The notes under the pieces are model-generated. The model was not told the DNA's origin, ran no database searches, and was given only the letters and a program-made list of their open reading frames with translations. Position numbers and translations under genes: made by a program. A stretch of DNA of 56,407 nucleotides from Chloroflexota bacterium (GTDB lineage: Bacteria; Chloroflexota; Anaerolineae; Anaerolineales; Villigracilaceae): assembly GCA_021824575.1 (NCBI GenBank), contig JAKAKJ010000091.1:1-56407 (forward strand). The letters are read 5' to 3'. Of this stretch, positions 12,110 to 30,258 are shown in pieces. Position 1 is the first letter of the stretch; each line of letters begins with the position of its first letter.

Positions 12110-13561
12110 TCAGGAGAGATTTGGGGACGCCCCCACACGAAAACCGGGGTCGCTGTCGAGGAGGTCGATGTCGACGACGCCGCGGAAAGCGCAGCGCGCG
12201 AGCCTGCGACTAATGTTGAAGGAACCGCCGCGCAGCACACGGGCGCCAGAAGCTTTTTCATCTTCGCGCCCGTCATCGGCTTTATACGGATATGGCTTGA
12301 ACAAACTGTGCGTCCACTCCCACACGTTGCCAGCCATATCGGCGCAAAGGTACGGCGAGTCGCCCTGCGGCGAATATAAGCCAACTGGCGTAGTTATTCC
12401 CTTCCCGCCTTCGCTTGAATTGCACTTGTTTTTATCGAATTGATTTCCCCACGGCCATTCGTTGACCTCACCCCGTCCCTCTCCTAAAAGGAGAGGGGAG
12501 CCTCGAGCGGCTTTTTCCCATTCGGCTTCGGTCGGTAAACGCAATATCAAACCGGAAGTCAATTTGCCTTTGAGCAAACCATTCAGCCATTGGCAATATG
12601 CCATGGCATCTTTCCAGGTTACTTTGGCAACAGGATGATCTTTCTTCTTCGCCCAGTCACCGACAGGATGCTTCAATCCTTTGGCTTTTACGAAGGCGCT
12701 GTATTGTTCATTCGTAGTTGGGAAGCGCGCCATCCAGTAATCGTAGGGAATATCCACGGTATGCTGCGGTCGTTCATCATCATAAGCCAATTTGTTTTCT
12801 TTTGTACTTCCCATCAAAAATTTTCCGGCGGGCACGCGCATAAATTCCATGCCGCCGAGTTCGATCCTGTCAGTCCTCCATTCTTCGATCGGTTTTGCAT
12901 ACTTGGCATAATAATCATTCAGCCAATCTAATGCCTGGTTTGGTTCAGGCTGAGGTTTCTCGACGATAATCGTATTGTGGTCGCCAACAATAATATTTGA
13001 ATCAACAACACTGCCGCTAATGCCAGTTTCCGCCCCATCCTTTGCTGATCCCTTTTCTTCAATGGATTTTCCGGAACGTTTGGATTCTTTTTCAGGCGCA
13101 GGCGTTTCGGTTTTCAAGCCAAGTGAATCGGCGCGTCTTTTCAGGCTGGTTAGCAGACGCTGAAAAGTGCGGTCGCGTTGTTCTTTAGGAAAGTAATCCA
13201 CATATTGATAGATCATCAATCGGCGCGGCACTTGGCACTCTTCGAGCCTGACCGGAATGACGAAAATGGTCTCTTCCGGTTTCGTGCGCGCGATATCCAG
13301 CACATAACGCAGCTCTGCTTGAACATAACCCTCTTTGCTGACCGAGTTCTTTGACAAGAATACAATCACCGCATCGGTTTGTTCAACAGCTTTTTCGATT
13401 TCAATATCCCAATCCTGTCCTGGATAAAGTTCCTCTTCATCTAGCCATGGTTGAATCCATGTTTCAGTGTGCAGTTTTTGATATAACTCGCGTACCAGCG
13501 GCTTATCGTTGGATGAATGGCACAGAAAAACGCGCAAAGGTCGGTTCAATGAGTTAGGCAT
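12110..13561 (-). CDS. TIR domain-FGE-sulfatase/C-type-lectin-fold protein, DGR target
   Basis: A 483-residue fusion. Residues 7-150 are a TIR domain: RVFLCHSSNDKPLVRELYQ at the start, and SKNSVSKEGYVQAEL with Glu83 at the position of the NADase catalytic Glu. A charged linker follows (about 155-185), then a short segment VVDSNIIVGDHNTIIV. Residues about 240-480 are an FGE-sulfatase (SUMF1-type) domain: GGMEFMRVPAGKFLMGS, LPTEAEWEKAARG, MAGNVWEWTHS and RVLRGGSFN. The active-site cysteines of true formylglycine-generating enzymes are not conserved, so this is probably a ligand-binding C-type-lectin fold. Fourteen residues between 450 and 472 differ from the template repeat only through A substitutions. 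Inferred role: a sensor with a hypervariable surface driving a TIR effector (NAD depletion or a signalling nucleotide). Residues SPLLLGEGRGEV come from an inserted short repeat. Confidence 0.9.
   Translation of the reverse strand: MPNSLNRPLRVFLCHSSNDKPLVRELYQKLHTETWIQPWLDEEELYPGQDWDIEIEKAVEQTDAVIVFLSKNSVSKEGYVQAELRYVLDIARTKPEETIFVIPVRLEECQVPRRLMIYQYVDYFPKEQRDRTFQRLLTSLKRRADSLGLKTETPAPEKESKRSGKSIEEKGSAKDGAETGISGSVVDSNIIVGDHNTIIVEKPQPEPNQALDWLNDYYAKYAKPIEEWRTDRIELGGMEFMRVPAGKFLMGSTKENKLAYDDERPQHTVDIPYDYWMARFPTTNEQYSAFVKAKGLKHPVGDWAKKKDHPVAKVTWKDAMAYCQWLNGLLKGKLTSGLILRLPTEAEWEKAARGSPLLLGEGRGEVNEWPWGNQFDKNKCNSSEGGKGITTPVGLYSPQGDSPYLCADMAGNVWEWTHSLFKPYPYKADDGREDEKASGARVLRGGSFNISRRLARCAFRGVVDIDLLDSDPGFRVGASPNLS
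12124..12245 (-). repeat. DGR variable repeat (VR) inside the TIR-FGE gene
   Basis: It encodes residues 440-479 of the TIR-FGE protein and pairs base for base with the template repeat at 11843-11964. Changes relative to the template adenines are 9 A-to-G, 6 A-to-T and 3 A-to-C. Fourteen codons change, for example Asn to Ile, Ser, Leu, Gly, Val or Asp. RVLRGGSFN before the variable positions and GFRV after them are untouched. Confidence 0.93.
12466..12507. repeat. Short palindromic repeat inserted in frame in the TIR-FGE gene
   Basis: CCTCACCCCGTCCCTCTCC at 12466-12484 is followed by a complementary GGAGAGGGG arm (12490-12498). Translated on the minus strand it adds SPLLLGEGRGEV between the conserved EKAARG and WPWGN blocks of the FGE domain. 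A related element is at 40383-40431. Confidence 0.7.
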
Positions 13562-15451: not shown

Positions 15452-16663
15452 CTAAAATTGATCCAAATACTTCAAACCCGACCCGGTGTTAAATAGCACA
15501 ATACGTTCATCAGGCTGTACCCACTTTCTTTTAAGAAGCGCTTCGAGAGCAGCCAGTGTAGCAGCACCCTCGGGCGCAGCAAAGATCCCTTCCATCCTGC
15601 CAAGTTTGCGCTGGGCATCCAGGATGGATTCGTCGTTTACTGCTACAGCAGTCCCCTGACTCTCGCGTATATCGTGCAAGATGAGTGCATCTGCAAAGCT
15701 CTTTGGCACCCGCAGCCCGGATGCCAGTGTATGCGCATTTGTCCAAAAATCGCAAAAGGATGCGCCGTTTTCAAAAGCCTTGACTACGGGCGCACAACCT
15801 TCCGCCTGCACGGACACCATACGAGGTCTTCTCGTATTACTCAACCAGCCTAACGCCTCAAGTTCTGCAAAGGCTTTCCACATACCCACCAGGCCGGTAC
15901 CGCCACCTGTAGGATAGATAATTACATCAGGCAGAGACCAATTAAAAGCCTCAGCCAGTTCGTAGCCCATAATCTTTTTCCCCTCCACGCGGTATGGTTC
16001 CTTGAATGTGGAAAGATCAAACCAACCCTCCGCGCGCGCCTTTTCTCCGGCCATACCAGCGGCATCGCTTATCAGGCCATCCACCAAAACAACCTCTGCG
16101 CCTGCTATGCGGCTTTCCTCGATATTGGCTCGTGGCGTATCCTTCGGCATGTAGATGAGAGCCTTGATTTTTGCACGAGCTGCATAGGCAGCCATGGCCC
16201 CGCCCGCGTTTCCAGCCGTGGGGATGATGACTTTTTCGATCCCAAGCTCTTTGGCTTTGGAAACGGCAGCAGCGAGTCCCCGCGCCTTGAAGGAGCCGGT
16301 CGGGTTAGTGCTCTCATCTTTAACATAAAGGTTGCTGAGTCCAAGCTCCTTTCCGATGTGCGGCAGGTGCAATAAAGCAGTGTCCCCCTCTCCGAGAAAA
16401 ACGAAATTCTGCGGATCCCTTACCGGGAGCAATTCATGCCATCGCCATAATCCGTTCTGCCGATGACGGATGGCATCACGATCCGCATGCTTTCCCACCG
16501 ATGTCAGATCATAACGAGCCAGCAAAGGAGATTGACAGTCGGGGCAAAAAGTATGGACCTTATCCGGCGTGAATTTCCTTCCACAGCCCGAACATTCTAA
16601 TTCGGATAAGTATGAGGTCGTCTTGGAGACGATAGAATCATGCATGATTGGCTGAGATCGCAT
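15452..16663 (-). CDS. Threonine-synthase-like PLP enzyme
   Basis: A fold-type II PLP enzyme of about 403 residues. It opens with a zinc-ribbon (CSGCGRKF ... CPDCQSPL), then LGEGDTALLHLP, the Schiff-base Lys in NPTGSFKARGLA, TAGNAGGAMAAYAA and the phosphate-binding YPTGGGTGLVGMW. Threonine synthase converts O-phosphohomoserine to threonine, but paralogues act on other amino acids, and no homoserine gene is nearby. I place the start at the ATG at 16663, because AAAGGA precedes it; an upstream in-frame start (16696) has no such site. It is the last gene of the signalling cluster, 41 bp after a lone receiver gene, and is paralogous to the enzyme half of the fusion at 17089-18741. Confidence 0.85.
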   Translation of the reverse strand: MRSQPIMHDSIVSKTTSYLSELECSGCGRKFTPDKVHTFCPDCQSPLLARYDLTSVGKHADRDAIRHRQNGLWRWHELLPVRDPQNFVFLGEGDTALLHLPHIGKELGLSNLYVKDESTNPTGSFKARGLAAAVSKAKELGIEKVIIPTAGNAGGAMAAYAARAKIKALIYMPKDTPRANIEESRIAGAEVVLVDGLISDAAGMAGEKARAEGWFDLSTFKEPYRVEGKKIMGYELAEAFNWSLPDVIIYPTGGGTGLVGMWKAFAELEALGWLSNTRRPRMVSVQAEGCAPVVKAFENGASFCDFWTNAHTLASGLRVPKSFADALILHDIRESQGTAVAVNDESILDAQRKLGRMEGIFAAPEGAATLAALEALLKRKWVQPDERIVLFNTGSGLKYLDQF

Positions 16664-16703
16664 TCTAAATCCTTTAAATTGTCCACATAATATCACCGGT
16701 AAA

Positions 16704-17084
16704 CTATTGCGTCGACTCTACATAAGCCTCGACCCTTGCCCAGAGTTCGCGAATGTTGATCGGCTTGGACATGTACACATCGCATCCAGCTTCAAGCGCC
16801 TTTTCAGCATCGCCTTTTAAGGCGTTGGCCGTAACGGCAATGATTGGAATATACACCAATTTATGGTTCTCACTGGCTCGCAGACGCCGGGCTACTTCAT
16901 AGCCATCGATATCTGGCAAATTGATATCCAGCAAAATGAGATCCACCTCTTGATCGTTTGCGATACGGAGTCCATCCATTCCGTTTTTGGCCTCAAGCAC
17001 ATTATAGCCCCGCGATTGCAGCACCCGTTTGACGAGCATCATATTATCTGGATTGTCTTCGATATACAAGATGTTTTTTTCCAT
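16704..17084 (-). CDS. Single-domain response regulator receiver (CheY-like)
   Basis: About 126 residues, one receiver domain and no output domain. Acidic residues IEDN near the start, phosphoacceptor Asp in LILLDINLPDIDG, Thr/Ala in PIIAVTANAL and Lys in VYMSKPIN are all present, so it can accept a phosphate. I start at ATG 17084, 4 bases after the stop of the fusion gene, with AGGGA before it; a TTG at 17108 inside the upstream gene is less likely. Its place between two threonine-synthase-like genes, the first already carrying a receiver, suggests it is a diffusible phospho-relay or sink for the same kinases. Confidence 0.9.
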   Translation of the reverse strand: MEKNILYIEDNPDNMMLVKRVLQSRGYNVLEAKNGMDGLRIANDQEVDLILLDINLPDIDGYEVARRLRASENHKLVYIPIIAVTANALKGDAEKALEAGCDVYMSKPINIRELWARVEAYVESTQ

Positions 17085-17088
17085 ATGA

Positions 17089-18741
17089 TTACTTCCCTTG
17101 TTCTCCAACTTTGTCTTCGATCACTTGGATTACCTGATCAACAAATTTTTTGGGCTGTAGTGAACCCTTTTGGTACACTGCTTCGATATGACCATTCAGC
17201 CGCTTTCGCTCCTCGCCGGTGATATCCTTGGCGCTGATGACCACAATAGGGATATCCCGTGTGCGGGGATCGAGTCGCAGTTCCTCTACAAGGCCAAAAC
17301 CATCTATGCCTGGCAGCATCAAATCGGTGACAATCATTTCAGGCAATTTTTGTCTGGCCAATGCCATCCCTTCCCACCCATCTTTTGCAACGAACAGCCG
17401 ATATGCTTTCCGGCTTTCCAGAAGACGGCGAATAAGCAGGGCGTCGTCTTCATTATCATCAATTACCAATATCGTAGTTGTTTTTTCATCCAGGTTTTCG
17501 AGAGCAGCTTGCAAACCTTCGCGAGGAGCAGGAGCCTGGCTTTCGCTCAAATGAACATCCACCGCATACTGTTCACCGATAATATGTTTCTCGACCGGGA
17601 ACGTATGTCCTGTACAATTCACGATAACAGTTTCATCTTTTGTAATATGGCCATTGCGCAGAAGTTTTTCAAGGCCTGCAAACGCTACCGCAGCAGCGGG
17701 TTCCACAGCCATTCCCTCTGTTTTTGCCAAAGTCCGCATGGCAGAAAAAGCTTCCGAGTCTGACACGGCTTCCATGATGCCGCCGTGGAGTTTTATAAGA
17801 TTCCATAGGTATGTGTAACTCTTACCCGGGTCACCAGTAGAAAGGATGGTAATGCGAGTATCGGGTATGACAGACTCGGCAACTTCCTGGCCAGCCTTGA
17901 AGGCTCTGACCATCGGCGCACATCCCTCAGCCTGAATCACTCCCAATTTGGGGATTCGATCAATCAACCCCATGTTATATATTTCCTTAAAGCCTTGATA
18001 CACGCCCAAGGGACCCATGCCGCCGCTTACAGACTGAATATACCAATCGGGTGTTCTCCAGCCAAGTTGTTCCACAATCTCGTAGGCAATGGTCTTCATT
18101 GACTCGCGCGCAGGTATGGAGCTTGCCCCGCGGTCAAGCAAAAGACGGCGTCGCTGAGCAAACTGGGCTGCGATCTGTTTGGTTTGATCGTAATTGCCAC
18201 TCACGCGGATCACCTCGGCCCCGAAGAGAGCAGCCTCCCGTAACTTTTCCTGAGGTACCAGGCTGGTCATGAAAACCCATAGCTTGATCCCCGCTCGTGC
18301 ACAGGCCGCTGCATAAGCAACAGCCGCGTTACCAGTAGATGCAATAACCGCCTCACGCACACTCCCTTCAACCATGGCAGCTACCGCAACCGCGGCCTGC
18401 CGATCCTTGAAGGAACTGGTTGGGCCATAGCGTTCATCTTTAAAATAAACATTGGAATTGCCAAGTGCCGGGGCGTAACGTTGCGAAAGCCATAGCGGTG
18501 TCCCGCCGGCAGGATAAAGATCAAGGGCGGAAGGATGGTCCAGCGGAAGAATATCTTGATATCGCCACATATTTAATGGACGTCCCGGCAAGCCGCGAAG
18601 AATTTCGCGCTTGAAGGCCTCGTAGTCATAATAGGTTTCCATCCATTGGGAACCGCATCGTTCACATACAGCCGGTGTGAACGGCTCATAGGGCTGCCGA
18701 TTTCCACATAGACTGCATTCCACGTACTTCGGTCTTGACAT
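17089..18741 (-). CDS. Threonine-synthase-like enzyme fused to a receiver domain
   Basis: A 550-residue fusion. Residues 9-32 form a zinc-ribbon (CSLCGNRQ ... CERCGS). The PLP enzyme follows, to about 400: GGTPLWLSQRYA, Schiff-base Lys in YGPTSSFKDRQ, STGNAAVAYAAACARAG and SVSGGMGPLGVYQGF. Residues about 425-550 are a complete receiver: ILVIDDNEDD, phosphoacceptor Asp in IVTDLMLPGIDGFG, IVVISAKD and a final Lys region VYQKGSLQP. Both halves look intact. A biosynthetic PLP enzyme under direct phospho-control would be novel; alternatively the enzyme half has become a ligand sensor. It follows the soluble kinase gene by 2 bp, so that kinase is the obvious phosphodonor. Confidence 0.9.
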   Translation of the reverse strand: MSRPKYVECSLCGNRQPYEPFTPAVCERCGSQWMETYYDYEAFKREILRGLPGRPLNMWRYQDILPLDHPSALDLYPAGGTPLWLSQRYAPALGNSNVYFKDERYGPTSSFKDRQAAVAVAAMVEGSVREAVIASTGNAAVAYAAACARAGIKLWVFMTSLVPQEKLREAALFGAEVIRVSGNYDQTKQIAAQFAQRRRLLLDRGASSIPARESMKTIAYEIVEQLGWRTPDWYIQSVSGGMGPLGVYQGFKEIYNMGLIDRIPKLGVIQAEGCAPMVRAFKAGQEVAESVIPDTRITILSTGDPGKSYTYLWNLIKLHGGIMEAVSDSEAFSAMRTLAKTEGMAVEPAAAVAFAGLEKLLRNGHITKDETVIVNCTGHTFPVEKHIIGEQYAVDVHLSESQAPAPREGLQAALENLDEKTTTILVIDDNEDDALLIRRLLESRKAYRLFVAKDGWEGMALARQKLPEMIVTDLMLPGIDGFGLVEELRLDPRTRDIPIVVISAKDITGEERKRLNGHIEAVYQKGSLQPKKFVDQVIQVIEDKVGEQGK

Positions 18742-18743
18742 AA

Positions 18744-21137
18744 CTATTTCTCCAACTTCTCGACTGGCTCCGCAATAACGGCTTCAATTGGCAATTCCAC
18801 AAAGAACGTGGAACCTTTACCCACCTCGCCGGTGCTCTCGGCCCACAGGCGGCCTCCGTGCATTTCAACCAGGCGGCGACTGATTGGCAAACCCAGACCG
18901 GTGCCGCCTGTTTTGCGCGTGGATGATGTGTCCACCTGCGTAAATTCCTGGAATATGGCTTCCAATTTTTCAGGAGGAATGCCGATGCCCGTATCTCGTA
19001 CAGTAATCAAAACCTTTTGGTCTTGTGTTGTGACGTGCAAGGAAATCTTCCCCTTTTCTGTAAACTTGATGGCATTATTGACGATGTTAATCATCACTTG
19101 ACGTATGCGGGTTCTGTCAGCTGTGATTTCGACTTCGGCATCAGAGTCTTTCTCGATGAAAAGCGCCAGGTTCTTTTCGCTTGCCAGCGTAGATGTGATG
19201 CTATTTACTTCTTCAAGAATTTCATGAATTCGGAATTTTTCCGGATTCAAATTCATGCGTCCGGCTTCAATTTTAGCCATATCGAGCACATCGTTGATTA
19301 GATGCAGCAGGTGTTGACCGTTCTTCTGAATCAGGCCCAAATCGTTGTGCATATTTTCAGTCAACGGACCATCGAGTTCCTCGAGCATAACATCTGAGAA
19401 ACCGAGAATGGAATTCAATGGTGTACGCAATTCATGCGACATATTGGCAAGGAAGGATGATTTGAGGCGATCCAATTCACGGAGTTGAGCAACCGTTGCG
19501 GTTTGTTCCATATATAGACGAGCATTCTGAAGCGCAACGCCCACTTGCGCTGTCAGCGTCGTATAAATGTTGGCATCATCTTCAGTAAAGTAGTTGGCAA
19601 TTTCCGATTGCACATCATACACCCCAAGAACCTTGTCGCCAACGATCATGGGGACGGCCATTTCGGAACGCGTATTTGGAAGCAATGGATTGGCAAGAAA
19701 ATCAGGATTAACAGATACATCATTCACAATAACAGGCTTGCGCTCCATAGCTGCGCGAGCGACAATCGATTTTTTTGCGTCCAGTGGAATTACGTGCTGT
19801 TCGGCAACCATTTGTTTGCCGATTTCCCCCGCACCTGCCGCGAGGATCAATGTATTCCAGGTTTCATCGGCCAGATAAATATGGGCATGATAGAGACGGA
19901 AACGCTCCTTGGTAAGGTCTACCACTGATTGCAATAATTCATCCGGGTTGAGCACGGTGGATGCAGTGGTACTTAATTTCGCAACAGCTTGCAGTTCTGA
20001 TGCGCGCTTCTGGAGTTCTTCTGCAAGTCTGACAGTTTCAAGATGAACGCTCACTCGTTCGGCGATGGCGGCAACGAGTTCAGCAGTTTCTGGCGGCATC
20101 GTGTTCCAGCCTGCAATAGCCAATCGTCCGATGGTTTCTCCGCGTACTGTAAGAGGTTGTGTAAAATTCACTTGCTGTGTGACAGGCAGTTCCTCAGTGG
20201 ATGTGACTTGATTGGAATCATAAACGAAGCCAAGCGACGAGAGATCTTTGTTAGTGGCATATGTTTCCCAGCTCTCACGAGTAAGACGGCGGGTGGCTTC
20301 TTCTGCTTCGGCACGGGCGCGGGATGCGGCAGCCAACAGACGGATGTTCTCCACCTGTTGTGCAACCTCTTTTGCGATGACAGAAACCATTGCCTTATCC
20401 TGTTCGTTCAATGGGTGAGCGGGGTCAGGTTTTACATACAAAGTGCCAACATGTTCATCTGCCACGTTGACCGATTCCTGAATGCCATCATCATTGATAT
20501 CCGTCTTCAAAAAAGGGACGACAGCAGCCTGGTCATAGGCATAGCCGACTCGTTCGCTATGGTGAATGGCATCAAGAAAGGAATCCCAGTTTTCATGCAT
20601 GAAACGGCGAGTAGCAGCTTCGGCGTCAGCACGGGCGCGGTCTGTCGCCTCAAGCAAACGCAGGTTTTGTATTTGAAGGGACGCCTGTTGGGCTATAGCA
20701 TTGACCAGACTGGTCTCTTCCTGACTCAAGGATTGTTCAGGCGACAAGTTGACCAGCATTTCGCCGATGGTTTTTCCACTGGCTTTCAATGGGGCAGTGA
20801 CAGAGGGTATGTTCCCTGGCTCGACTAGATGTGGCTCCGGGATTGACTCAACTCTGTCGCCATTGTAGGCGAATCCGATCCGATCATTTTCGTATAGGAT
20901 CGGTGTGGATGGATGATGGCCATTATTATTCTCATTCTTTGCTTCTGCCATCATCGGTGATGGTATGTCTGCATTTTTTTCGCTCTCGGCGAATTGCATC
21001 TCCAACTCAGATAGACGCGCTCGAAGCTTATCCAGTTCGTGGAAGACTTCCTTCGTTGCGCTTGCAGGGTCTGCGGCAAGGCGCTCGACATCCGCAAACA
21101 GGGCCTCGAGACGATCACGATATCGGCCATTTGACAT
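18744..21137 (-). CDS. Soluble multi-sensor histidine kinase
   Basis: A 797-residue kinase with no membrane helix. A coiled-coil start (1-60) is followed by three copies of a GAF-like module (about 75-165, 180-285, 290-375), each joined by a linker of the type EEATRRLTRESW and opening with GF/GYxYD. A conventional GAF follows (about 390-545), then HisKA with the phospho-His in NMSHELRTPLNSILGF and a full HATPase: N box INIVNNAIKFTEKG, VRDTGIGIPPEKL, GGTGLGLPISRRL. It lies downstream of three receptors that have no kinase domain and directly upstream of the receiver fusion, so it is the likely kinase linking them. Confidence 0.93.
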   Translation of the reverse strand: MSNGRYRDRLEALFADVERLAADPASATKEVFHELDKLRARLSELEMQFAESEKNADIPSPMMAEAKNENNNGHHPSTPILYENDRIGFAYNGDRVESIPEPHLVEPGNIPSVTAPLKASGKTIGEMLVNLSPEQSLSQEETSLVNAIAQQASLQIQNLRLLEATDRARADAEAATRRFMHENWDSFLDAIHHSERVGYAYDQAAVVPFLKTDINDDGIQESVNVADEHVGTLYVKPDPAHPLNEQDKAMVSVIAKEVAQQVENIRLLAAASRARAEAEEATRRLTRESWETYATNKDLSSLGFVYDSNQVTSTEELPVTQQVNFTQPLTVRGETIGRLAIAGWNTMPPETAELVAAIAERVSVHLETVRLAEELQKRASELQAVAKLSTTASTVLNPDELLQSVVDLTKERFRLYHAHIYLADETWNTLILAAGAGEIGKQMVAEQHVIPLDAKKSIVARAAMERKPVIVNDVSVNPDFLANPLLPNTRSEMAVPMIVGDKVLGVYDVQSEIANYFTEDDANIYTTLTAQVGVALQNARLYMEQTATVAQLRELDRLKSSFLANMSHELRTPLNSILGFSDVMLEELDGPLTENMHNDLGLIQKNGQHLLHLINDVLDMAKIEAGRMNLNPEKFRIHEILEEVNSITSTLASEKNLALFIEKDSDAEVEITADRTRIRQVMINIVNNAIKFTEKGKISLHVTTQDQKVLITVRDTGIGIPPEKLEAIFQEFTQVDTSSTRKTGGTGLGLPISRRLVEMHGGRLWAESTGEVGKGSTFFVELPIEAVIAEPVEKLEK

Positions 21138-21191: not shown

Positions 21192-24100
21192 TTAATTTCC
21201 GTGGTCTTTCATGCCCAATTGAGCGATGGTCAGCGGAGCGCCAAGAGCATGACCAAGTTCCCGCGCTGCGATTTGAAGCACGGCCTCCACTGTCGTCGCG
21301 CTCTGGATCTTCTGGCTGATGGTGTTCAACATGGCTTCGCGTTCAGCCTGGCGTTGTGCGTGTTCGAACTGGCGGCGGTTTTCCAATACAGTGGCAATCT
21401 GCGGAGCTAACGCCGAGAACAAGCGGGTTTCCGCAGGACTGAAGTTGTGTGGTTCCTCAGCTTCCAAGATCAATGCCCCAATTTGGCGTGTGCCAATGTA
21501 AAGAGGTAGAACTGCGACCGCGCGAAGGTTCAAGCGCTTGACGAGGTCCATTGTTGTAACATCGACGCGTTTATCGGTAAATGTATCGTCAAAGAAGACA
21601 GGAGTGGGGCTTACGAACATGGGCATCACGCGAATCACATCAAGTGAATAATGCGTTCCAACAGCTGTTATTTGATGACCGGTGCCATTCCACCAATTTG
21701 CAACAACATCCAACCCATCAATAGTATTCTTTGAATCGTAGTTAAAAATCACCAGGAGGGCGCGATTGATTTTGGGGATATCCAGCGTGGTTACGGTCGC
21801 CGCGGTCAACTCCTGTAAATCGGCGGCTTGTGTCAAGCTGCGGCTGGCTTCAAACAATTTGTTTGACTGCGCAAGGGCAAGTTGCGTCTCGTTTTGCTGA
21901 CGCAAGCTTTCGATGTGAATGCTAAGCCGCTCCGCAACTGAAGTGGCAAGCTCGTTTGCCTCCACATCCGTTTCATCAACGCCAAGGATGGCCAACTTCC
22001 CTATGGCTTCATCGCGCACTTTTAACGGTAAGATCACATTCGGTTGTTCCGATAAAACTTCAGCCTGCTGTGTACAAGGCTTGACTTCCCTAAGGTCGTA
22101 CAGGAAGCCCAATTCTTCATTCGATTTAGACTCGGCATAATTTTGCCAGCCCTCGCTAGTCAGATGGCGGGCAGCTTCTTCAGCTTCGCGGCGATAACGT
22201 TCAGCATCTTCGAGCAGTCTCAGGCTTTCGATCTGTTGTGCCACTTGACGTGCAACAATATTTACAAGCTCCTGATTCTGAACACCCAGGTTTTCGGAAT
22301 CCATTTCAACAACCATGGTGCCAACCTGCTCTCCGGTAATTGAGATGGGCACTGTTATAGCATTGCCGCTCGAAGGTTGTCCGGTATTCTCCAAATCCGC
22401 AAGCGGGATAATTTTGTTCGCTTCAAAGGCGAAACCGGTTCGCTCAGGCAGATGAATGGCATCGAGGTGTTCATTCCAATTGGAACGGACCAAGCGGCGG
22501 GCCTGAGCTTCCACTTCTTTGCGGGCTTGTTCAGTTTCAGCAAGCAGTGCTGCATTCTGGATGGCAATAGCCAACTGTCCAGCCAGTGCTTCGAATCCAG
22601 ATAGCGAATCCTGGTTCAATGCACCGGCTTGTTTACTTTGCATATCCAGCACGCCCACGACCTTTTCGCCAACAATTAACGGCACGGCCATTTCGGACCG
22701 GGTATCGGGCAGGAGGGGGTTGGGAAGGAAGGAAGCACTGGCTGCTGTATCAGAGATCACCACGGAGTGTTTTTCCACCGCAGCACGCCCATTGATTGAA
22801 CTAGTGTTAAGCGGCAGACGGTGGCCGCGGTTAACCAATTCCTCGCCAACGCTTCCGGTACCAGCCTGAAGCATCAATGCATTTTGAGCAGCGTTTGTCA
22901 GATAGATTTGTACGTAATACAGATCAAATTTCGAACGGATGAGTTCTGCAGCATCTTTCAACATCACATCGAGGGCACGCACTTGCGATACAGAACGACC
23001 TACGTCTGCCGCAAGTTCAAGGCTGTGGGTACGTTCTGCCACACGTTGTTCCAAACTTCCGATCAGTTCATGCAGCTGGGCAGTCATACTGTTGAACGCC
23101 TTAGCCAGAGTGCCGATTTCATCCGTGGTTTCTACAATCGCTCTGCGTTCAAGATTGCCGTCTGCAATGGCAATGGCTGTCTCTGTTAATCTGGTGATCG
23201 GCCGCACTGTGGAGTTGATAAGTTGAACGATGACAAAGCCGCCAAGGACTATGGCAACAAGACTTGCCAGGATGGTAATGAAGAGATTCCAATTCTCGGC
23301 GGCAACCGCATCAGTGCGGTCTGAGATTATTTCCAAAACACCGATTACCTTACCGGAGAAATCCTTCAAAGGGAAACTGAGAACCCCATAATTTCTACGA
23401 TTGATACTTAAGTTGGATATAACCGATTCGCCTGCTAATACACGCGGATACACTGCAGGATTCACATATATAGGATTGGCACTCGTGCCGGCTTGATACA
23501 ATAACTCATCTGTCGGACCGGCAACCTGGTTGACAGCACCCTGGAAGGTGGCAGTCTGTGCAGCCTTCTTATCCAGCATGATTTGAACATCCACGTTATA
23601 TTGTTTTTTGATGGTGTTCAAAAAGTCTGGGCCAATATCAATACCAACATCGATAACGCCAATGTGCTTTCCAAGATAGGTTACCGGCGCTTCGCCTCGA
23701 ACTCCCAAGCCACCACGGCCAATTTCTGTACCGCTGACCGCCACCTGTTCAGTATTGGCCTTTACAACCGTAGCCCGAAAAGAGGAGAGGTCATCACCAT
23801 ACTGATCCAATTGATGAAGACGAAGGAAGGATGTCGCAGGCGGCAGGACAAATTGATATTGTTTGACGGCAAAATCCTTTTGTACCGCATCAAAGGTCGG
23901 TAATGTAATGTCGGTGAGATATTGACGGTTGCCAGAGGCAAAAGCAGCCTGAGCCCCCGGATTGTTTGCCATTTCGGTAGCAAGGCCCAAAGCCAGATTG
24001 CTCAAGCCGTCGATCTGGTTCAGGACAGCGCTTTGGATGTTCTCCAGACCCTGCGCTTCATTCGCCTGATTCTTCTGTGCATTGCCATAGAAGTTGTAAC

Positions 24101-24236
24101 TGACCAATCCGATTGCAAACAATATAGTCACCGCGAGAATGGGGATAAGCAATTTTCGTGAAAGACTCAGGCCTCTCCAGAAAGAAGAAACAGTGGAGCT
24201 GATATTTACGGGATTAATAGAGGATGTCTTGTTCAT
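21192..24236 (-). CDS. Membrane receptor: Cache-HAMP-GAF with tandem GAF-like modules, no kinase
   Basis: A 1014-residue protein. A membrane helix near residues 28-50 (LLIPILAVTILFAIGLVSYN), an extracytoplasmic Cache-like sensor to about 320, a second helix (ITILASLVAIVLGGFVIV), HAMP (PITRLTETAIAIADGNLERR) and a coiled coil come first. Then come a GAF (about 410-560), two GAF-like modules with the linker motif EEAARHLTSEGWQNY, and a last GAF. It ends in the tail TISQKIQSATTVEAVLQ ... RELGHALG, shared with the next two upstream genes. No HisKA or HATPase is present, so it must signal through another protein. Ligand unknown. Confidence 0.9.
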   Translation of the reverse strand: MNKTSSINPVNISSTVSSFWRGLSLSRKLLIPILAVTILFAIGLVSYNFYGNAQKNQANEAQGLENIQSAVLNQIDGLSNLALGLATEMANNPGAQAAFASGNRQYLTDITLPTFDAVQKDFAVKQYQFVLPPATSFLRLHQLDQYGDDLSSFRATVVKANTEQVAVSGTEIGRGGLGVRGEAPVTYLGKHIGVIDVGIDIGPDFLNTIKKQYNVDVQIMLDKKAAQTATFQGAVNQVAGPTDELLYQAGTSANPIYVNPAVYPRVLAGESVISNLSINRRNYGVLSFPLKDFSGKVIGVLEIISDRTDAVAAENWNLFITILASLVAIVLGGFVIVQLINSTVRPITRLTETAIAIADGNLERRAIVETTDEIGTLAKAFNSMTAQLHELIGSLEQRVAERTHSLELAADVGRSVSQVRALDVMLKDAAELIRSKFDLYYVQIYLTNAAQNALMLQAGTGSVGEELVNRGHRLPLNTSSINGRAAVEKHSVVISDTAASASFLPNPLLPDTRSEMAVPLIVGEKVVGVLDMQSKQAGALNQDSLSGFEALAGQLAIAIQNAALLAETEQARKEVEAQARRLVRSNWNEHLDAIHLPERTGFAFEANKIIPLADLENTGQPSSGNAITVPISITGEQVGTMVVEMDSENLGVQNQELVNIVARQVAQQIESLRLLEDAERYRREAEEAARHLTSEGWQNYAESKSNEELGFLYDLREVKPCTQQAEVLSEQPNVILPLKVRDEAIGKLAILGVDETDVEANELATSVAERLSIHIESLRQQNETQLALAQSNKLFEASRSLTQAADLQELTAATVTTLDIPKINRALLVIFNYDSKNTIDGLDVVANWWNGTGHQITAVGTHYSLDVIRVMPMFVSPTPVFFDDTFTDKRVDVTTMDLVKRLNLRAVAVLPLYIGTRQIGALILEAEEPHNFSPAETRLFSALAPQIATVLENRRQFEHAQRQAEREAMLNTISQKIQSATTVEAVLQIAARELGHALGAPLTIAQLGMKDHGN

Positions 24237-24278
24237 CTTTTCTCTCCAAAAACATGGCTGAAAATTCTCTTACCACGT

Positions 24279-26735
24279 TCAGTTCTGGCGAATGTCGTTG
24301 TCTCCACTTGGGTGCCTTGTAATACTGGCGCTGACTCGTGGTGCACCAAGCGCTAGACCAACTTCGCGAATAGCAGTTTGCAGAGCATCTCCCACTGATG
24401 CCGTGCGCTGGATCTTCTGACCGATGGTATTGACCATTTCCTCTAGATCCGCTTTTGTTTTTGTCTCAATATAAGCCTGGGCACTTTGCAAAGCAGTAGC
24501 GATTTGGGAAGCAAGGGTCATTTGGATATTGGCATCTTGATCGCTGAATGCATCCACATGATCAGCCTGTACATCCAATACGCCGAGCAATTCATCACCC
24601 ACGATCATTGGCACTGCAAGTTCCGCACGCGTTTCAGGAAGAAGCGGATTAGGCAGCCAGTCTGGGTCATTAAGAACATCATTAATGATCACCGGCTTAC
24701 GAGTCCGTGCCGCGCGTGCAACCAGCGATTGTTCCTGAGCAATCGGGATGGAGGTGGTGCCGTGCGTACCTTCATGAACATCTCCTTCCTTCCAACCGCA
24801 AGCCACAATTTGCAAATCCTTGCCTTCCCTTTGAAAAGTGAAGACATGAGCGTGATACAAACCAAAACCGCGTTGGGTCAGGTGTACTGCCGTTGCCAAC
24901 ATTTGGAGCGGATCACGGATAGTGGCTATAGTTGTACTGATGGATGCGACTGTTGCGAGGTCCTTCGTACGGGCAGCCACACGCTCTTCAAGTGAAACGA
25001 TCAAGTCACGCAGACGGGATGTCATGTTGTTGAAGGTTTGCGACAATACACCGATCTCATCGGTTGATTCCACTTTGGCCTGCGCTTCAAGATCACCAGC
25101 GGCAACCTGCTCGGCTACTGTGGCAAGACGCACCAATGGCCGTGAGAGAATCTGTGCCAATCCAATTGCTGCTAATGATGCCAAAACGGTGATGACAACG
25201 GCTAAGATCAGGTTGTTTTGTGTTTGTGCAGTGATAGGTTGAAAAGCTTCCTCTTGGTCTTCCTGGGTTACTACATACCAGCCCAGGTTTTTAATGAATT
25301 TCGATTCCTCGCTGGAACCTGGGGTGGAGACACTCGCCATACTAACCACGCTGGGAACATTATCGAGGGGAGCCACTTGGTATTTCTCACTCGTACCGAG
25401 CAAGGCTGTTATATCGGTACCGGCTTTTTCAACGGTGAGTTCATATTTACCGCTATCGGTAGGAACGAGTTTAATCTGCTGACCATCGGGCAAGAAAATG
25501 CTGGTCTGGCCTGTTTTGCCAAACAGCCCTGCACTTAGTACGTTGCCCAGCGCGTTGATATTGACAGTCGTTCGCAAGACACCGACAACCTGGTTGCTGT
25601 ATGGCGACTTCACTGCCACCGCCATATTCATGGACAGCACTTTGGAACTGGCATCGAACTCTGGCTGGCCTATATATTCTCCATTCTTATAAGCTGCCTG
25701 CCACCAATCTTCATCAGACTGGAGGTAATCGGATGTACGATCGGTTGTAGCTATGCTGACACCTGGCAAGTCAGTAAGAAATACTTCAACGTTCTCAGGG
25801 TATTTGGCTTGAAACTTGAGCAATTCTGCGGATAGGGGGTCACTTAGAACCCGCGCCACCAAGGGGTCGGAATTGTTATTGGCCGCATCCGCATTTTTCC
25901 ATTCCTGGTCAAGGGTATTGATCTCGGTTTGGCTGAGATTGTCCCCTATTGTGCCAGCAAATGCCCGTTGCTGAACCGCCTGTGACAGTGCAAGCGTGTT
26001 AAGCAGACCCAACTCATTGACTAGAGTTTGCCCGACCGCATTAGCCTGTCCGGCAGAAATAATAGACAAGTTGTTCCCAACCGCATTCGTCAAGGCGGTT
26101 CTGGAGGAACGATCAACAAAAAAGACAATGCTTCCCGCCGTAACAATTGTGACTAGCACGAAGGAAACAATTAACTTGGTTTGCAGTGAGAAATTCCGGA
26201 ACTGGCGAATCGTCTGATACGCATAGAGCAAGATAACGCCGCCCAAGATGAAGGGCAGAAAAACGCGAATAGGCTCTGGTTGCGGAAAACGATATGCTGG
26301 TCCAAACAAATCCAAAAGAAATGCAGCTACGCCGCTCGCCATACCTAGAACGCTTGCTCGAGTGGCTGCTCTGCTGGATAATGTCTGACCGGCAATGATA
26401 GATACCAGGATAGCAATGCTTACGCCAACAAGCAAGCCGATTCCTTCGATCAAAGCCACTGCACCTATAAAGGTCACTTGAATTGCGGCCAGAAGTATCC
26501 AAACTCCCCATGACATACGGTCACGGCGAATGAAAACCATGGCAACTACAATCGCAACGGCCAGCAACCAGATATCCGCACTCCAAACATAAAGCTGCCA
26601 GGCGCCAATTGTCAGGGCCAGATAAAGGTAAAAAGACGCAGCTATGATGGAAGCGGGTAAACCGATCAACGCTATGCGCCAGGCATTGCGCGTCTGGGAT
26701 GATGTGTTTTCAGGAAGACGGAATAGATTATTCAT
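24279..26735 (-). CDS. Membrane receptor: polytopic N-terminus, Cache, HAMP, GAF, no kinase
   Basis: About 818 residues. The first 190 hold about six membrane helices resembling a MASE-type sensor. Another helix (KLIVSFVLVTIVTAGSIVFF) leads into an extracytoplasmic dCache-like domain of about 300 residues. After it come a helix (LILAVVITVLASLAAIGLAQ), HAMP (RPLVRLATVAEQVAAGDLEA), a coiled coil and one GAF. The tail TIGQKIQRTASVGDALQ ... EVGLALG is shared with the neighbours. No catalytic domain. I start at ATG 26735, 14 bases after the previous stop, with AGGAAG before it. It combines two sensory inputs, one within and one outside the membrane. Confidence 0.85.
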   Translation of the reverse strand: MNNLFRLPENTSSQTRNAWRIALIGLPASIIAASFYLYLALTIGAWQLYVWSADIWLLAVAIVVAMVFIRRDRMSWGVWILLAAIQVTFIGAVALIEGIGLLVGVSIAILVSIIAGQTLSSRAATRASVLGMASGVAAFLLDLFGPAYRFPQPEPIRVFLPFILGGVILLYAYQTIRQFRNFSLQTKLIVSFVLVTIVTAGSIVFFVDRSSRTALTNAVGNNLSIISAGQANAVGQTLVNELGLLNTLALSQAVQQRAFAGTIGDNLSQTEINTLDQEWKNADAANNNSDPLVARVLSDPLSAELLKFQAKYPENVEVFLTDLPGVSIATTDRTSDYLQSDEDWWQAAYKNGEYIGQPEFDASSKVLSMNMAVAVKSPYSNQVVGVLRTTVNINALGNVLSAGLFGKTGQTSIFLPDGQQIKLVPTDSGKYELTVEKAGTDITALLGTSEKYQVAPLDNVPSVVSMASVSTPGSSEESKFIKNLGWYVVTQEDQEEAFQPITAQTQNNLILAVVITVLASLAAIGLAQILSRPLVRLATVAEQVAAGDLEAQAKVESTDEIGVLSQTFNNMTSRLRDLIVSLEERVAARTKDLATVASISTTIATIRDPLQMLATAVHLTQRGFGLYHAHVFTFQREGKDLQIVACGWKEGDVHEGTHGTTSIPIAQEQSLVARAARTRKPVIINDVLNDPDWLPNPLLPETRAELAVPMIVGDELLGVLDVQADHVDAFSDQDANIQMTLASQIATALQSAQAYIETKTKADLEEMVNTIGQKIQRTASVGDALQTAIREVGLALGAPRVSASITRHPSGDNDIRQN

Positions 26736-26749
26736 GTATATTCTTCCTC

Positions 26750-28642
26750 TCAATTCTTATTTTCAGCTTCAGCGGACTGTGCAGGCCGGTCAATAGCCAC
26801 CAAAGTCGGCTTCATCCCGAGAGCATGTCCCAGTTCGCGAGCAGTGACCTGCAATGCGGCTTCTACGGTAATGGTATTTTGGATTTTTTGGGTGATTAGG
26901 TTAAGTGCTTCTTGTTGCCTGGCGCGCTGAGCCGTGAGTTCTTCCAGGCGCTTGCGCTCGGTAATATCCTGATTGGCGCCATAGTAGCGGATGATACGAC
27001 CGTTGCTATCTCGTTCGATATGCACATTTACTGAGATATATCCTATTCCACCATCCGCATATAGAACGCGGTGTTCCAGGTGGGTGCTATAGTGTCGGTC
27101 TGTGGAGGCCAAGGCTTTCTCAATTTCTTGGCCAACCAACGGAACATCATCAGGATGAACCAGGCGCTCTGCATATTGAGCAGACGATAACTCATATCCG
27201 CCTTCACGTTCCGCCGTCGTGTGAAAGATCGCGTAGAAGTGATCATTGAATATAAATCGATCTCGCGTCACGTCATATTCCCAATTGGCGAGTTTGGCAA
27301 TGTCCAGCGCCTCAGATAGTTGCGCTGCCGTTCGCTGAGTCTCTGCATATTGGCGGATATTTTGCAGGGCCAATGCCACCTGGTTTGCAATGGAGCCGAT
27401 CATTTCGGCATCCTGGTCAGTCAGGCTATTGACCTCGGCGTTTTGCACATCCAAAACTCCAAGAACTTGATTGCCCAGCAAAATAGGTACGGCAATTTCC
27501 GATTTGGTGTTTGGCAATAGAGGATTGGGCAACCAGTTGGGATCAGCACCGGTATCTGGAACGATCATGGCAGATTTCGATTCAGCTGCACGGCCCACGA
27601 GACCTTTTCCAATCGAAATTTTATGACCGCGCTCCAAAAGACGTTTTCCCGCTTCTCCAGTACCGCCGGTCATGATCAGATTTTTGCCTGTATCATCTGC
27701 CAGATAAATATGAGCATGATAATAATTGAAAGCAGATTGAAGTTGATTAACCACTTCCACGGCAAGCTGTCCACTATCCGTAATGGAAGAAATACGACGG
27801 CTCACTTCTCCCGCTGTGGCAAGCGCTTTGGTGCGATCTGCCACACGCTGTTCCAGTTCCACAAGGGTCTGCGCCAATTCGTTTGTAATCTGGTTGAAGG
27901 TCTGGGCAAGCAGGCTCAGTTCATCTGTTCCCTCCGATGGGATTGATGTTCCCTTTCGTTCTAAGCGGAAACTTTCTGCGCCCTTGTGCAGTTCTGAAAT
28001 TGGTGCGGTAATACTTCGTTGAACAGCTGATGCAATTGCAATTGCCAACAAAATAAGAGCCAAATAACCAACGACCAAAATAATCAAACGCTGCTGGGCC
28101 AGCACCAAAGCCGTATTGTTCGCCTCGTCGGTCTGGGTCTGGTTGGTAGTCAAAACTGAACGTATTTGCTGTTCCAGATCAAATTCTAGACGATAGGAGT
28201 TGGATAACAGTGTATTGACATCGGCCGATCTGCCTTCAGTATAAGCCGTCTGTGCATCCGTAATGAGCGTGCTGTAACTCACCAATCCGGCCAATATGTT
28301 CGCGGTGGCTGTTTTCTGAGCAGGATCTGTGATCAAGAGGCGCACAGCCTCGATGGAGTGCAAGGCATCGCTGGCATTGGCCAGTGATTCGTTCGTGCTG
28401 GGCGCGAGGTTATCCGCAAAACGCATCGCATTGACGCGCGAGGAAAGGATGTCCGACAAAGCCAGGTTAAGTAGCTGGTTGGATTTTGTATCCACGTTGG
28501 CGAGGTGCTGAATACGGTCTGTTAGCGACAGGTAATTGAGAACAGAGAGTAGGACGGCCACCATCAAAAAAGCCAAAAGAATAATGAAACTTCCCACTAC
28601 CCTAGTGCGTACCGATAGCCGGCGCAGAAAATGAATGAGCAT
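26750..28642 (-). CDS. Membrane receptor: HAMP-GAF-PAS, no kinase
   Basis: A 630-residue protein. Two membrane helices (about 15-37 and 186-208) flank a helical extracytoplasmic domain of about 150 residues, the layout of four-helix-bundle receptors. HAMP ([17 protein letters not shown]), a coiled coil, a GAF (about 285-425) and a PAS/PAC pair (about 440-575, ending [20 protein letters not shown]) follow. The C-terminal tail [17 protein letters not shown] ... ARELGHALG is shared with the two receptors downstream. It has no kinase or output domain. It follows the binding-lipoprotein gene by 75 bp, so that lipoprotein may present a ligand to it. Confidence 0.88.
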
Positions 28643-28717: not shown

Positions 28718-29716
28718 CTACTTTGAGGCACTGTCCCAGAATTTGTTGGTCATCACATCAGCGGGTTGTACGGCGCCTTTGAGGATGCCAAACTGCAACA
28801 AGGTGTCGATAGTTCGCTGAAGGGCCGCATCATCGGAACGGCCCAGTTGAGGTCCCTGAACCAGTTTGGCGATTTCCGTCATCATGGATAACTGGTGCTG
28901 TCTGGTCTGCTCACCGGTCTTGTCATATCTCAGAACGATGTCAACCGCTTCACTGGGATGGGCTATCGCGTACTGCCATCCCTTCAGACTTGCGCGGACC
29001 ATGCGTGTACACAGATCTGGATTCTGGTCAACAGTTGTCTTGGATGTAAAAAGGACGTCTCCGGGGAAATCCAATCCGTAATTGGCATAATCTATGATGT
29101 TGATATCTTCCGGGGCAATGCCACTTTCCAGGACGGAGTAATATTCGTTGTAGCTCATAGCCGATGCCACATCTAAATCTCCCTTAATGAACGGGGTCAT
29201 GCTGTAACCCTGCTGAACCAGGGTGAAATCATTCTTTGAGATTCCCTCTTTGGCGGTCAAAGCATCGAATTGTGCCTCCCAGCTTCCAAGCCAGACACCG
29301 ACTTTCTTTCCCTTTAAATCTGCCGGACTCAGGATACCTGATGATTTTTTGGCAATAAGAAGAAGGCCATTTTTCTGTTGGATCTGGGCAATACCTATAA
29401 CTGGCTTGTTACCTTGCACAGCCACGGCCAAATCCGCGAGCAGGGAGGTGCCGAAGTCACGCGTACCGGAAGCGACCAGATCAAGCGGACTCACATCGGG
29501 GCCTCCCGGGATGATGGTAAGGTCTATCCCCTCGTCCTTGTACCAGCCTTTATCTAGAGCGACATAATAACCGGCAAACTGAGCTTGGGTGACCCACTGC
29601 AATTGCAGTGTAACCGGCGTCAACTTAGGCTGGGCTGGTACACTTTGCCCGCTGCAAGCTGTAAGAGTTACTATGAGAGCTATTGCAATTTGAAGAATTA
29701 ACCATTGGGTTTTCAT
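28718..29716 (-). CDS. NMT1/THI5-type substrate-binding lipoprotein
   Basis: About 332 residues. A lipoprotein signal with lipobox LTAC (IALIVTLTACSGQ) is followed by a periplasmic-binding fold of the NMT1/THI5 type: VTLQLQWVTQAQFAGYYVALDKGWYKDEGIDL, GTRDFGTSLLADLAVAVQ, and LKGKKVGVWLGSWEAQFDALTAKEGI. Relatives bind pyrimidine thiamin precursors, riboflavin or alkylsulfonates for ABC import. No permease or ATPase gene accompanies it; it lies among receptor genes instead, which suggests a sensory binding protein. I start at ATG 29716, with AAGGAG before it; the longer in-frame form overlaps the upstream gene. Confidence 0.87.
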   Translation of the reverse strand: MKTQWLILQIAIALIVTLTACSGQSVPAQPKLTPVTLQLQWVTQAQFAGYYVALDKGWYKDEGIDLTIIPGGPDVSPLDLVASGTRDFGTSLLADLAVAVQGNKPVIGIAQIQQKNGLLLIAKKSSGILSPADLKGKKVGVWLGSWEAQFDALTAKEGISKNDFTLVQQGYSMTPFIKGDLDVASAMSYNEYYSVLESGIAPEDINIIDYANYGLDFPGDVLFTSKTTVDQNPDLCTRMVRASLKGWQYAIAHPSEAVDIVLRYDKTGEQTRQHQLSMMTEIAKLVQGPQLGRSDDAALQRTIDTLLQFGILKGAVQPADVMTNKFWDSASK

Positions 29717-29739
29717 ATTATTCTCCTTAATTGTGATCA

Positions 29740-30258
29740 TCAAAAAATTACATCGGTTGGATTTTTCTCAGTCGTACTCGCTTCGCGCACTTCAAGTCCA
29801 ATGCTTAATGTGTTGGCAACCTTCTTGAGCGGATCAGTAACCACGCCAACGCCTACTGGATCAGGGGCCGGCCCAAAGGCCGCCGAGAAGCCCGCTTCCT
29901 CCAAATCTTTTTTGGCCTGAACAGCTGATGCCATCCTAATAGCAATAACCAAAGCCACTTTCTGCATTTTCGGGCCCTGCAGAATCGGGTTGTGGGCCGC
30001 AACATTTGCGGCAAGCCCGCTATAGATGTAGATCACATTCTCGCTCTCAACGTAGCTAGACTCAGCCATGCCCATGTTGAAGCCAGCCATTGTCGAACTA
30101 AAAGCACTCAGACCAGATAGAATACCCACATAATATGCTTTGGATTGTAGAGCGCCACCGCGCCTGCTCAATAGCAGGGCACTAAAACAAACCGTATGAT
30201 AGGTATCCATAGTATTCGCGTCTTTCCATTTATCTTCACTTACTGAATATTGCTTCAT
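29740..30258 (-). CDS. Hypothetical protein (172 aa)
   Basis: A 172-residue protein I do not recognise. It starts MKQYSVSEDKWKDANTMDTY and has a small-residue-rich middle (YYVGILSGLSAFSSTMAGFN, IYSGLAANVAAHNP) that is only weakly hydrophobic, then KVALVIAIRMASAVQAKKDL and a Gly/Pro/Val-rich stretch (FGPAPDPVGVGVVTDPLKK). No signal peptide is clear. It lies 13 bp after the hybrid kinase gene and 23 bp before the binding-lipoprotein start, so it belongs to the operon. It might be an adapter or a small sensory protein; nothing in the sequence decides this. Confidence 0.6.
   Translation of the reverse strand: MKQYSVSEDKWKDANTMDTYHTVCFSALLLSRRGGALQSKAYYVGILSGLSAFSSTMAGFNMGMAESSYVESENVIYIYSGLAANVAAHNPILQGPKMQKVALVIAIRMASAVQAKKDLEEAGFSAAFGPAPDPVGVGVVTDPLKKVANTLSIGLEVREASTTEKNPTDVIF

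Follow-up and report, generated by a model that had tools for sequence, protein, structure and literature searches.

One protein of the window analysed here (the whole 56,407-nucleotide stretch, contig JAKAKJ010000091.1 of a Chloroflexota bacterium) joins a fold-type-II pyridoxal phosphate (PLP) enzyme of the threonine-synthase group to a C-terminal phosphoreceiver (REC) in a single chain. On balance, its sequence and gene context lead us to read it as a kinase-regulated PLP enzyme with an amino-acid substrate that is probably other than O-phosphohomoserine. The gene and its neighbours are arranged as follows:

15452..16696, minus strand: unfused enzyme resembling threonine synthase, NF006050/PRK08197 type (577.6 bits; cut-off 303)
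16704..17108, minus strand: stand-alone CheY-like receiver, frame listed from TTG at 17108
17089..18741, minus strand: PALP-REC fusion, 550 aa (open frame and Pfam), with zinc-ribbon cysteines at 9-29, a fold-type-II PLP domain to about 380, a linker at about 381-420 and a receiver from about 421
18744..21137, minus strand: histidine kinase (GAF, HisKA, HATPase_c by Pfam), no receiver
21192..24236, minus strand: sensor without kinase domain (dCache_3, HAMP, GAF by Pfam)
24279..26753, minus strand: sensor without kinase domain (HAMP, GAF and a dCache_1 match below cut-off, by Pfam)
26750..28642, minus strand: sensor without kinase domain (HAMP, GAF, PAS by Pfam)
28718..29743, minus strand: NMT1/THI5-like binding protein, upstream of the sensors

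The fusion is read from one uninterrupted frame of 550 residues, in which Pfam places PALP at 78-378 (E 2.5e-70) and Response_reg at 424-507 (E 4.9e-14). The first-pass annotation had stated that the zinc-ribbon cysteines, the Schiff-base Lys, and the acidic pair, phospho-Asp and Lys of the receiver are all kept. All of them are present in the window protein (Cys9, Cys12, Cys26, Cys29, Lys112, Asp428, Asp429, Asp473 and Lys525) and in the fused set as a whole. When identical sequences were merged, the 161 fused entries (among them L003, a cut piece of the window gene) gave 118 distinct sequences, one of which is cut at the N-terminus. All 117 uncut sequences have the four zinc cysteines along with Lys112 and the S-T-G-N motif, and all 118 have Asp429, Asp473 and Lys525. 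At position 428, 108 sequences carry Asp and 10 carry Glu; position 503 is Ser or Thr in every one, and the full receiver set of acidic pair, phospho-Asp, Ser/Thr and Lys is found in 118/118. The receiver Lys is usually, not universally, followed by Pro; here the next residue is Gly in 111 sequences, Ser in 3, Ala in 3, Arg in 1 and Pro in none of the 118. In the enzyme half, Lys112 aligns with Lys61 of Thermus threonine synthase.

The linker carries a motif, P.EGL..AL, with Pro406, Glu408, Gly409, Ala413 and Leu414 invariant across 18 sequences, and with Glu408, Gly409, Leu410, Ala413 and Leu414 each conserved in at least 90% of 53 sequences. An AlphaFold2 prediction from 53 sequences (mean pLDDT 82, pTM 0.68) folds each domain, with residues 381-420 below a pLDDT of 50 and no confident contact between PALP and receiver in the model. 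When this predicted structure was used as a Foldseek query, ranks 1 to 13 were threonine synthases.

A frameshift, or an assembly join between two separate genes, was looked for as the trivial explanation and is ruled out by recurrence of the fusion in one open frame. A second copy, on another contig of the same genome and adjoining a hybrid kinase, is 49% identical over 4-543. In the family sample, 73 matches (E 1e-60 or better) were obtained in 52 of 61 genomes, every frame being at least 547 aa; no match at that threshold was found in the remaining 9. A receiver stands behind 161 of 161 fetched enzyme domains scoring at least 364 bits. The fusion is also present in the single-contig genomes G008 and G058 and in the complete record of Herpetosiphon aurantiacus DSM 785 (CP000875.1). 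The domain-pair search across genomes that had been proposed at first pass thus found many homologous fusions, and their absence from relatives, which would have spoken against a real gene, is excluded.

Across the phylum sample, a match at E 1e-90 was obtained in 41 of 400 genomes, which belong to the family, its order, its class (taken to be Anaerolineae) and a few lineages outside the class. The latter comprise six genomes of family f35, which we take to be Herpetosiphon, and one of f24 (G070, 8% contamination). In the class of G091, a member of f35, the fusion was found in 6 of 101 genomes and in 1 of 51 genera, and the G091 fusion sits within the clade of the window protein (fork support 94/89). 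A single carrier genus and a placement inside that clade suggest that the gene reached this genus by transfer. In the named genome collection the best 80 of 534 relatives are all Chloroflexota by title. Among plasmid records, 24 match at E 1e-30, all at less than 60% identity and none covering 80% of the query.

The fused enzymes form a subfamily of their own. A profile covering the enzyme half and the beginning of the linker was run over 301 genomes. Its 42 best matches score at least 552.9 bits, in frames no shorter than 551 aa; the next among the matches listed scores 275.7 bits and lies in a 439-aa frame, and no close unfused relative of the fused PALP domain is found between the two among those matches. 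No receiver was detected behind any of the 54 fetched unfused relatives (194 to 275.5 bits), a set from which matches below 150 bits were dropped, so that the canonical thrC of this genome (L004) is not among them. In a tree of 66 enzyme domains, a branch with 100/100 support separates the 34 fused ones from the rest. Two subclades are seen among them, type A (the window protein and Herpetosiphon; 100/99) and type B (the second copy; 96/81); L166 and L167 belong to neither. For counts of gene context, 'type B' denotes less than 60% identity to the window protein. L118 is a full fusion of 554 aa.

Gene context was surveyed for type A at 80 loci, the best 80 of the 534 relatives in the named genome collection. 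The recurrent order is a kinase without receiver, the PALP-REC fusion, a CheY-like protein and, at some loci, a threonine-synthase (ThrC)-like enzyme. In the window, the kinase frame ends at 18744 and contains HisKA and HATPase_c by Pfam, in agreement with the first-pass statement that the fusion lies 2 bp downstream of a histidine kinase gene. The partnership implied by that statement is strongly supported by the survey: a kinase-like gene is immediately upstream at 76 of 77 type-A loci with room for one, the lone exception being L113, where the upstream gene best matched another sensor of the window. The gap between kinase and fusion has a median of 2 bp (80 pairs, 72 of them at 30 bp or less, overlaps counted), and that between fusion and CheY a median of 3 bp (76 pairs, 73 at 30 bp or less, overlaps counted). 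CheY is among the next two genes downstream at 74 of 77 loci, and an unfused ThrC-like enzyme is among the next four at 31 of 68 loci with enough sequence. At L174, two CheY genes lie upstream of the kinase. Kinase motifs and receivers of the upstream genes were scored with simple patterns and a home-made receiver profile, Pfam being applied to the window alone. By these measures, H-box and ATP-site motifs are both present in 78 of 81 type-A upstream genes, the three others being the short fragments L107 and L111, and L132; the receiver profile detected a receiver in none of the 81. Since type-A kinases lack a receiver, one must come from the neighbouring genes. Cognate pairs are usually encoded in this way, with the gene of a receiver-less kinase next to that of a protein whose receiver is intact, and the kinase at 18744..21137 is likely the cognate kinase of the fusion.

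Several further features of the neighbourhood were recorded. The CheY-like protein more likely starts at an ATG at 17084 than at the TTG at 17108. Near the fusion gene, 9 promoters were predicted against a shuffled mean of 6.1 (sd 2.3), and 4 terminators against 6.4 (sd 3.0). The three sensors at 21192-28642, each with a GAF domain and no kinase domain, share by eye a similar tail (..QKIQ..T...AL..A.RELG.ALG..) and may be one sensor chain split over three genes. Between the binding protein and a multi-domain kinase, 29740-30258 (minus strand) encodes a 172-aa protein with no Pfam match at E 0.001. A GNAT acetyltransferase accompanies a second CheY near some type-A fusions, downstream at 11 of 80 loci and upstream in Herpetosiphon (for example L168:1729-2592, and at L071, L107 and others). 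Elsewhere on the minus strand of the window, 12110-13561 encodes a 483-aa protein that combines a TIR with an FGE-sulfatase domain, and 2-931 and 963-2483 are tandem sulfatase-like genes, nearly identical by eye, the first of which runs off the window.

Type-B context was taken from 18 loci hand-picked from the matches in the genome itself and in the family and phylum samples. Here the order is mostly a hybrid kinase followed by the fusion: at 14 of the 18 loci the gene before the fusion codes for a hybrid kinase that has one or two receivers. An EamA transporter gene follows the fusion at 12 of 18, compared with 0 of 80 type-A loci. A stand-alone CheY directly downstream was found at none of the 18, and an unfused ThrC-like enzyme at one (L167). 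In general, the chain that unites enzyme and receiver is accompanied by a kinase gene; the exceptions are L163 and L164, where none is adjacent. An IF-2B family gene adjoins the fusion at L163, and the gene beside the L164 fusion resembles it. At 7 of 18 type-B loci a ParA-like ATPase is encoded no more than 7 kb upstream, before the kinase at L170:12788-13573 for example, and one is also near 7 of 80 type-A loci; it possibly positions a signalling complex.

The reading we prefer is that the fusion would act as a response regulator whose output is a fold-type-II PLP enzyme of the threonine-synthase group, its substrate probably altered. Asp473 would receive phosphate from the kinase of the adjacent upstream gene, and the phosphorylated receiver would alter the activity or the assembly of the enzyme through the conserved linker. 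The receiver would occupy the place of the regulatory domains found in other fold-II PLP enzymes, and in type A the CheY-like protein may share or drain phosphoryl groups. The fusion and its conservation, the intact PLP and receiver residues, the recurring operons and the replacements at the substrate-phosphate positions are observed; the transfer of phosphate, the allosteric coupling, the use of an amino acid other than O-phosphohomoserine as substrate and the part played by CheY are inferred. According to PMC9081730, C-terminal regulatory domains are a key feature of allosteric fold-II PLP enzymes; from this, together with the cognate-pair arrangement of the genes, phosphorylation of Asp473 would alter the enzyme. 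Several observations go against this reading: the predicted structure with its lack of a confident domain contact, the receivers that type-B kinases carry themselves (14/18), the two loci L163 and L164 where a kinase is not adjacent, and the 9 of 61 family genomes without a match. A C-terminal receiver is, moreover, unusual among response regulators.

That terminal position is one of the points consistent with a different direction of information flow, in which the PLP domain is the sensor: amino-acid binding would set the gain or loss of phosphate by the receiver, much as PLP-fold domains serve as sensors in MocR/GabR, and CheY would be the true output. The stand-alone CheY downstream of the fusion at 74 of 77 type-A loci fits this scheme, as does the loss of the canonical residues for the substrate phosphate (see below) with retention of the PLP-binding ones. 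We regard it as unlikely, about one chance in a few. No variation is seen in the PLP site, Schiff-base Lys included (117/117), an invariance that sensing alone need not demand, although it does not forbid it; the two CheY genes of L174 lie upstream of the kinase; and type-B loci have no stand-alone CheY directly downstream (0/18), with EamA at 12 of 18 instead. We tentatively favour amino-acid chemistry as the output over ligand sensing by the PLP fold, and take the EamA carrier beside type-B fusions as no more than a hint to the substrate.

Whether that chemistry is threonine synthesis was addressed by comparison with Thermus threonine synthase, in which T88, N154, S155, R160 and N188 are, we assume, the residues that hold the phosphate of O-phosphohomoserine. 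Each of the five canonical ThrC proteins compared from this group has the full set, and all five are replaced in 118 of 118 fused rows. The window fusion has A, R, G, A and G at Thermus 88, 154, 155, 160 and 188, and keeps Thermus positions 61, 84-87 and 317. Arg at 211 occurs in 0 of 118 fused rows; type-A proteins mostly have an Arg at the next position, 212 (86 of the 118 rows), which makes a different anion site possible. The 54 unfused relatives, many of which are named threonine synthase by a model, each keep one of the five positions (the Arg in 36, Asn154 in 18), and the ThrC-like neighbour in the window (15452..16696) keeps the Arg alone. Since these relatives too lack four of the five, the argument for a changed substrate is weakened.

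Model scores place the fusion close to or below the limits for threonine synthase. The window protein scores 165.1 and 166.7 bits in two scans with TIGR00260 (cut-off 167.1) and 247 bits with NF006050 (cut-off 303); six other fused proteins lie narrowly above the TIGR00260 cut-off, at 167.4 to 174.8 bits. The genome encodes a canonical thrC elsewhere, which scores 299 bits and is followed, after about 150 bp, by thrB in the same orientation. The thrC model matches five proteins of the genome in all (E 1e-30 or lower), including those at C82 15470-16447, C51, C50 and C95. In the family, 30 of 31 genomes have a match over the thrC cut-off other than the fusion, and 22 of 31 have a canonical-type row at 287-315 bits. 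No such row above 287 bits was found in the other 9 of 31, one of which has a 213.6-bit fragment and eight of which have none.

The fusion therefore shares with threonine synthases (TIGR00260 thrC; NF006050/PRK08197) the fold, the Schiff-base Lys, the S-T-G-N motif and Thr/Ser at 377, and with the PRK08197 type also the four-Cys zinc ribbon. It differs from them in its C-terminal receiver, in its own clade, in scores near or below the model cut-offs, and in the phosphate site, of which it retains 0 of 5 residues, compared with 1 of 5 in the PRK08197 type and 5 of 5 in canonical ThrC. An ordinary threonine synthase placed under two-component control is, in our estimate, improbable. In its favour, the closest matches among solved structures and folds are threonine synthases, six fused proteins pass TIGR00260, and a canonical-type row above 287 bits is missing from 9 of 31 family genomes; the phosphate residues may not be decisive either, since four of the five are also missing from unfused relatives that score above the cut-off of a threonine-synthase model. 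Against it stand the replacement of all five residues in every fused row, with Arg never at 211, the score of the window protein on NF006050, and the presence of canonical-type thrC in 22 of 31 family genomes and of a non-fused match over cut-off in 30 of 31. With the five phosphate residues replaced and another thrC encoded next to thrB, the fusion is unlikely to act as a threonine synthase, and such an activity is probably absent. These two observations and the NF006050 score likewise make a simple threonine synthase unlikely. The description 'threonine-synthase-like' given at first pass thus stands for the fold, the Schiff-base Lys and the PLP motif, and is doubtful as a statement of activity.

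It is still harder to credit that the PLP domain is a pseudoenzyme, serving as a scaffold for the receiver or as a regulatory partner of the downstream unfused ThrC-like enzyme: such an enzyme does follow at 31 of 68 type-A loci, but it was not found at 37 of 68 and is present at only 1 of 18 type-B loci (L167), and the PLP-site residues are invariant. A role in anti-phage defence was rejected, PADLOC having given no family for the fusion at E 0.001 and two weak matches for the kinase.

Returning to the kinase-regulated enzyme, a wider form of this reading can be offered tentatively and with less confidence than its core. There would be a two-component system, common in Anaerolineae, in which phosphorylation of the receiver directly switches a PLP enzyme of new substrate, without transcription, and the product of the type-B enzymes would be exported by EamA, perhaps as a signal. 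The outputs of two-component systems are mostly transcription or second-messenger enzymes. If the proposal is true, an environmental signal here switches a metabolic enzyme directly and not a gene, phosphorylation controls amino-acid chemistry, and the receiver joins the list of regulatory domains on fold-II PLP enzymes. Some 'threonine synthase' annotations in Chloroflexota may merit re-examination, and a cultured carrier with a complete genome, Herpetosiphon aurantiacus DSM 785, makes the question testable.

Regulatory C-terminal domains on this fold have familiar representatives, such as threonine deaminase, a fold-II PLP enzyme with a C-terminal ACT regulatory domain. Cystathionine beta-synthase (PMC9081730) likewise has a C-terminal regulatory domain on a fold-II core; in the present case this domain is a phosphoreceiver and not a ligand-binding domain. 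MocR/GabR regulators also combine a PLP-enzyme fold with a signalling domain, but theirs is of fold type I with a DNA-binding domain and no receiver. A census of 2005 (PMC1183210) states that it disregarded enzymatic output domains beyond those on its own list. The first-pass annotation knew of no described two-component control of a PLP enzyme by direct fusion. For this domain pair the claim holds, in that no description of a PALP-receiver fusion is among the literature matches listed, within which the pair is new; for the kind it does not, because fusions of receivers to metabolic enzymes are already known. According to PMC5847659, receivers attached to standard metabolic enzymes have been seen in bacteria, and such fusions are narrowly distributed in archaea. 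Like the response regulators with a metabolic-enzyme output treated there (a receiver with a KaiC-like ATPase or a BcsA-like glycosyltransferase), the PALP-REC protein links receiver and enzyme covalently and is limited to particular lineages. It is set apart from those cases by its PLP enzyme, by its C-terminal receiver and by a kinase operon conserved in much of a class as well as in Herpetosiphon.
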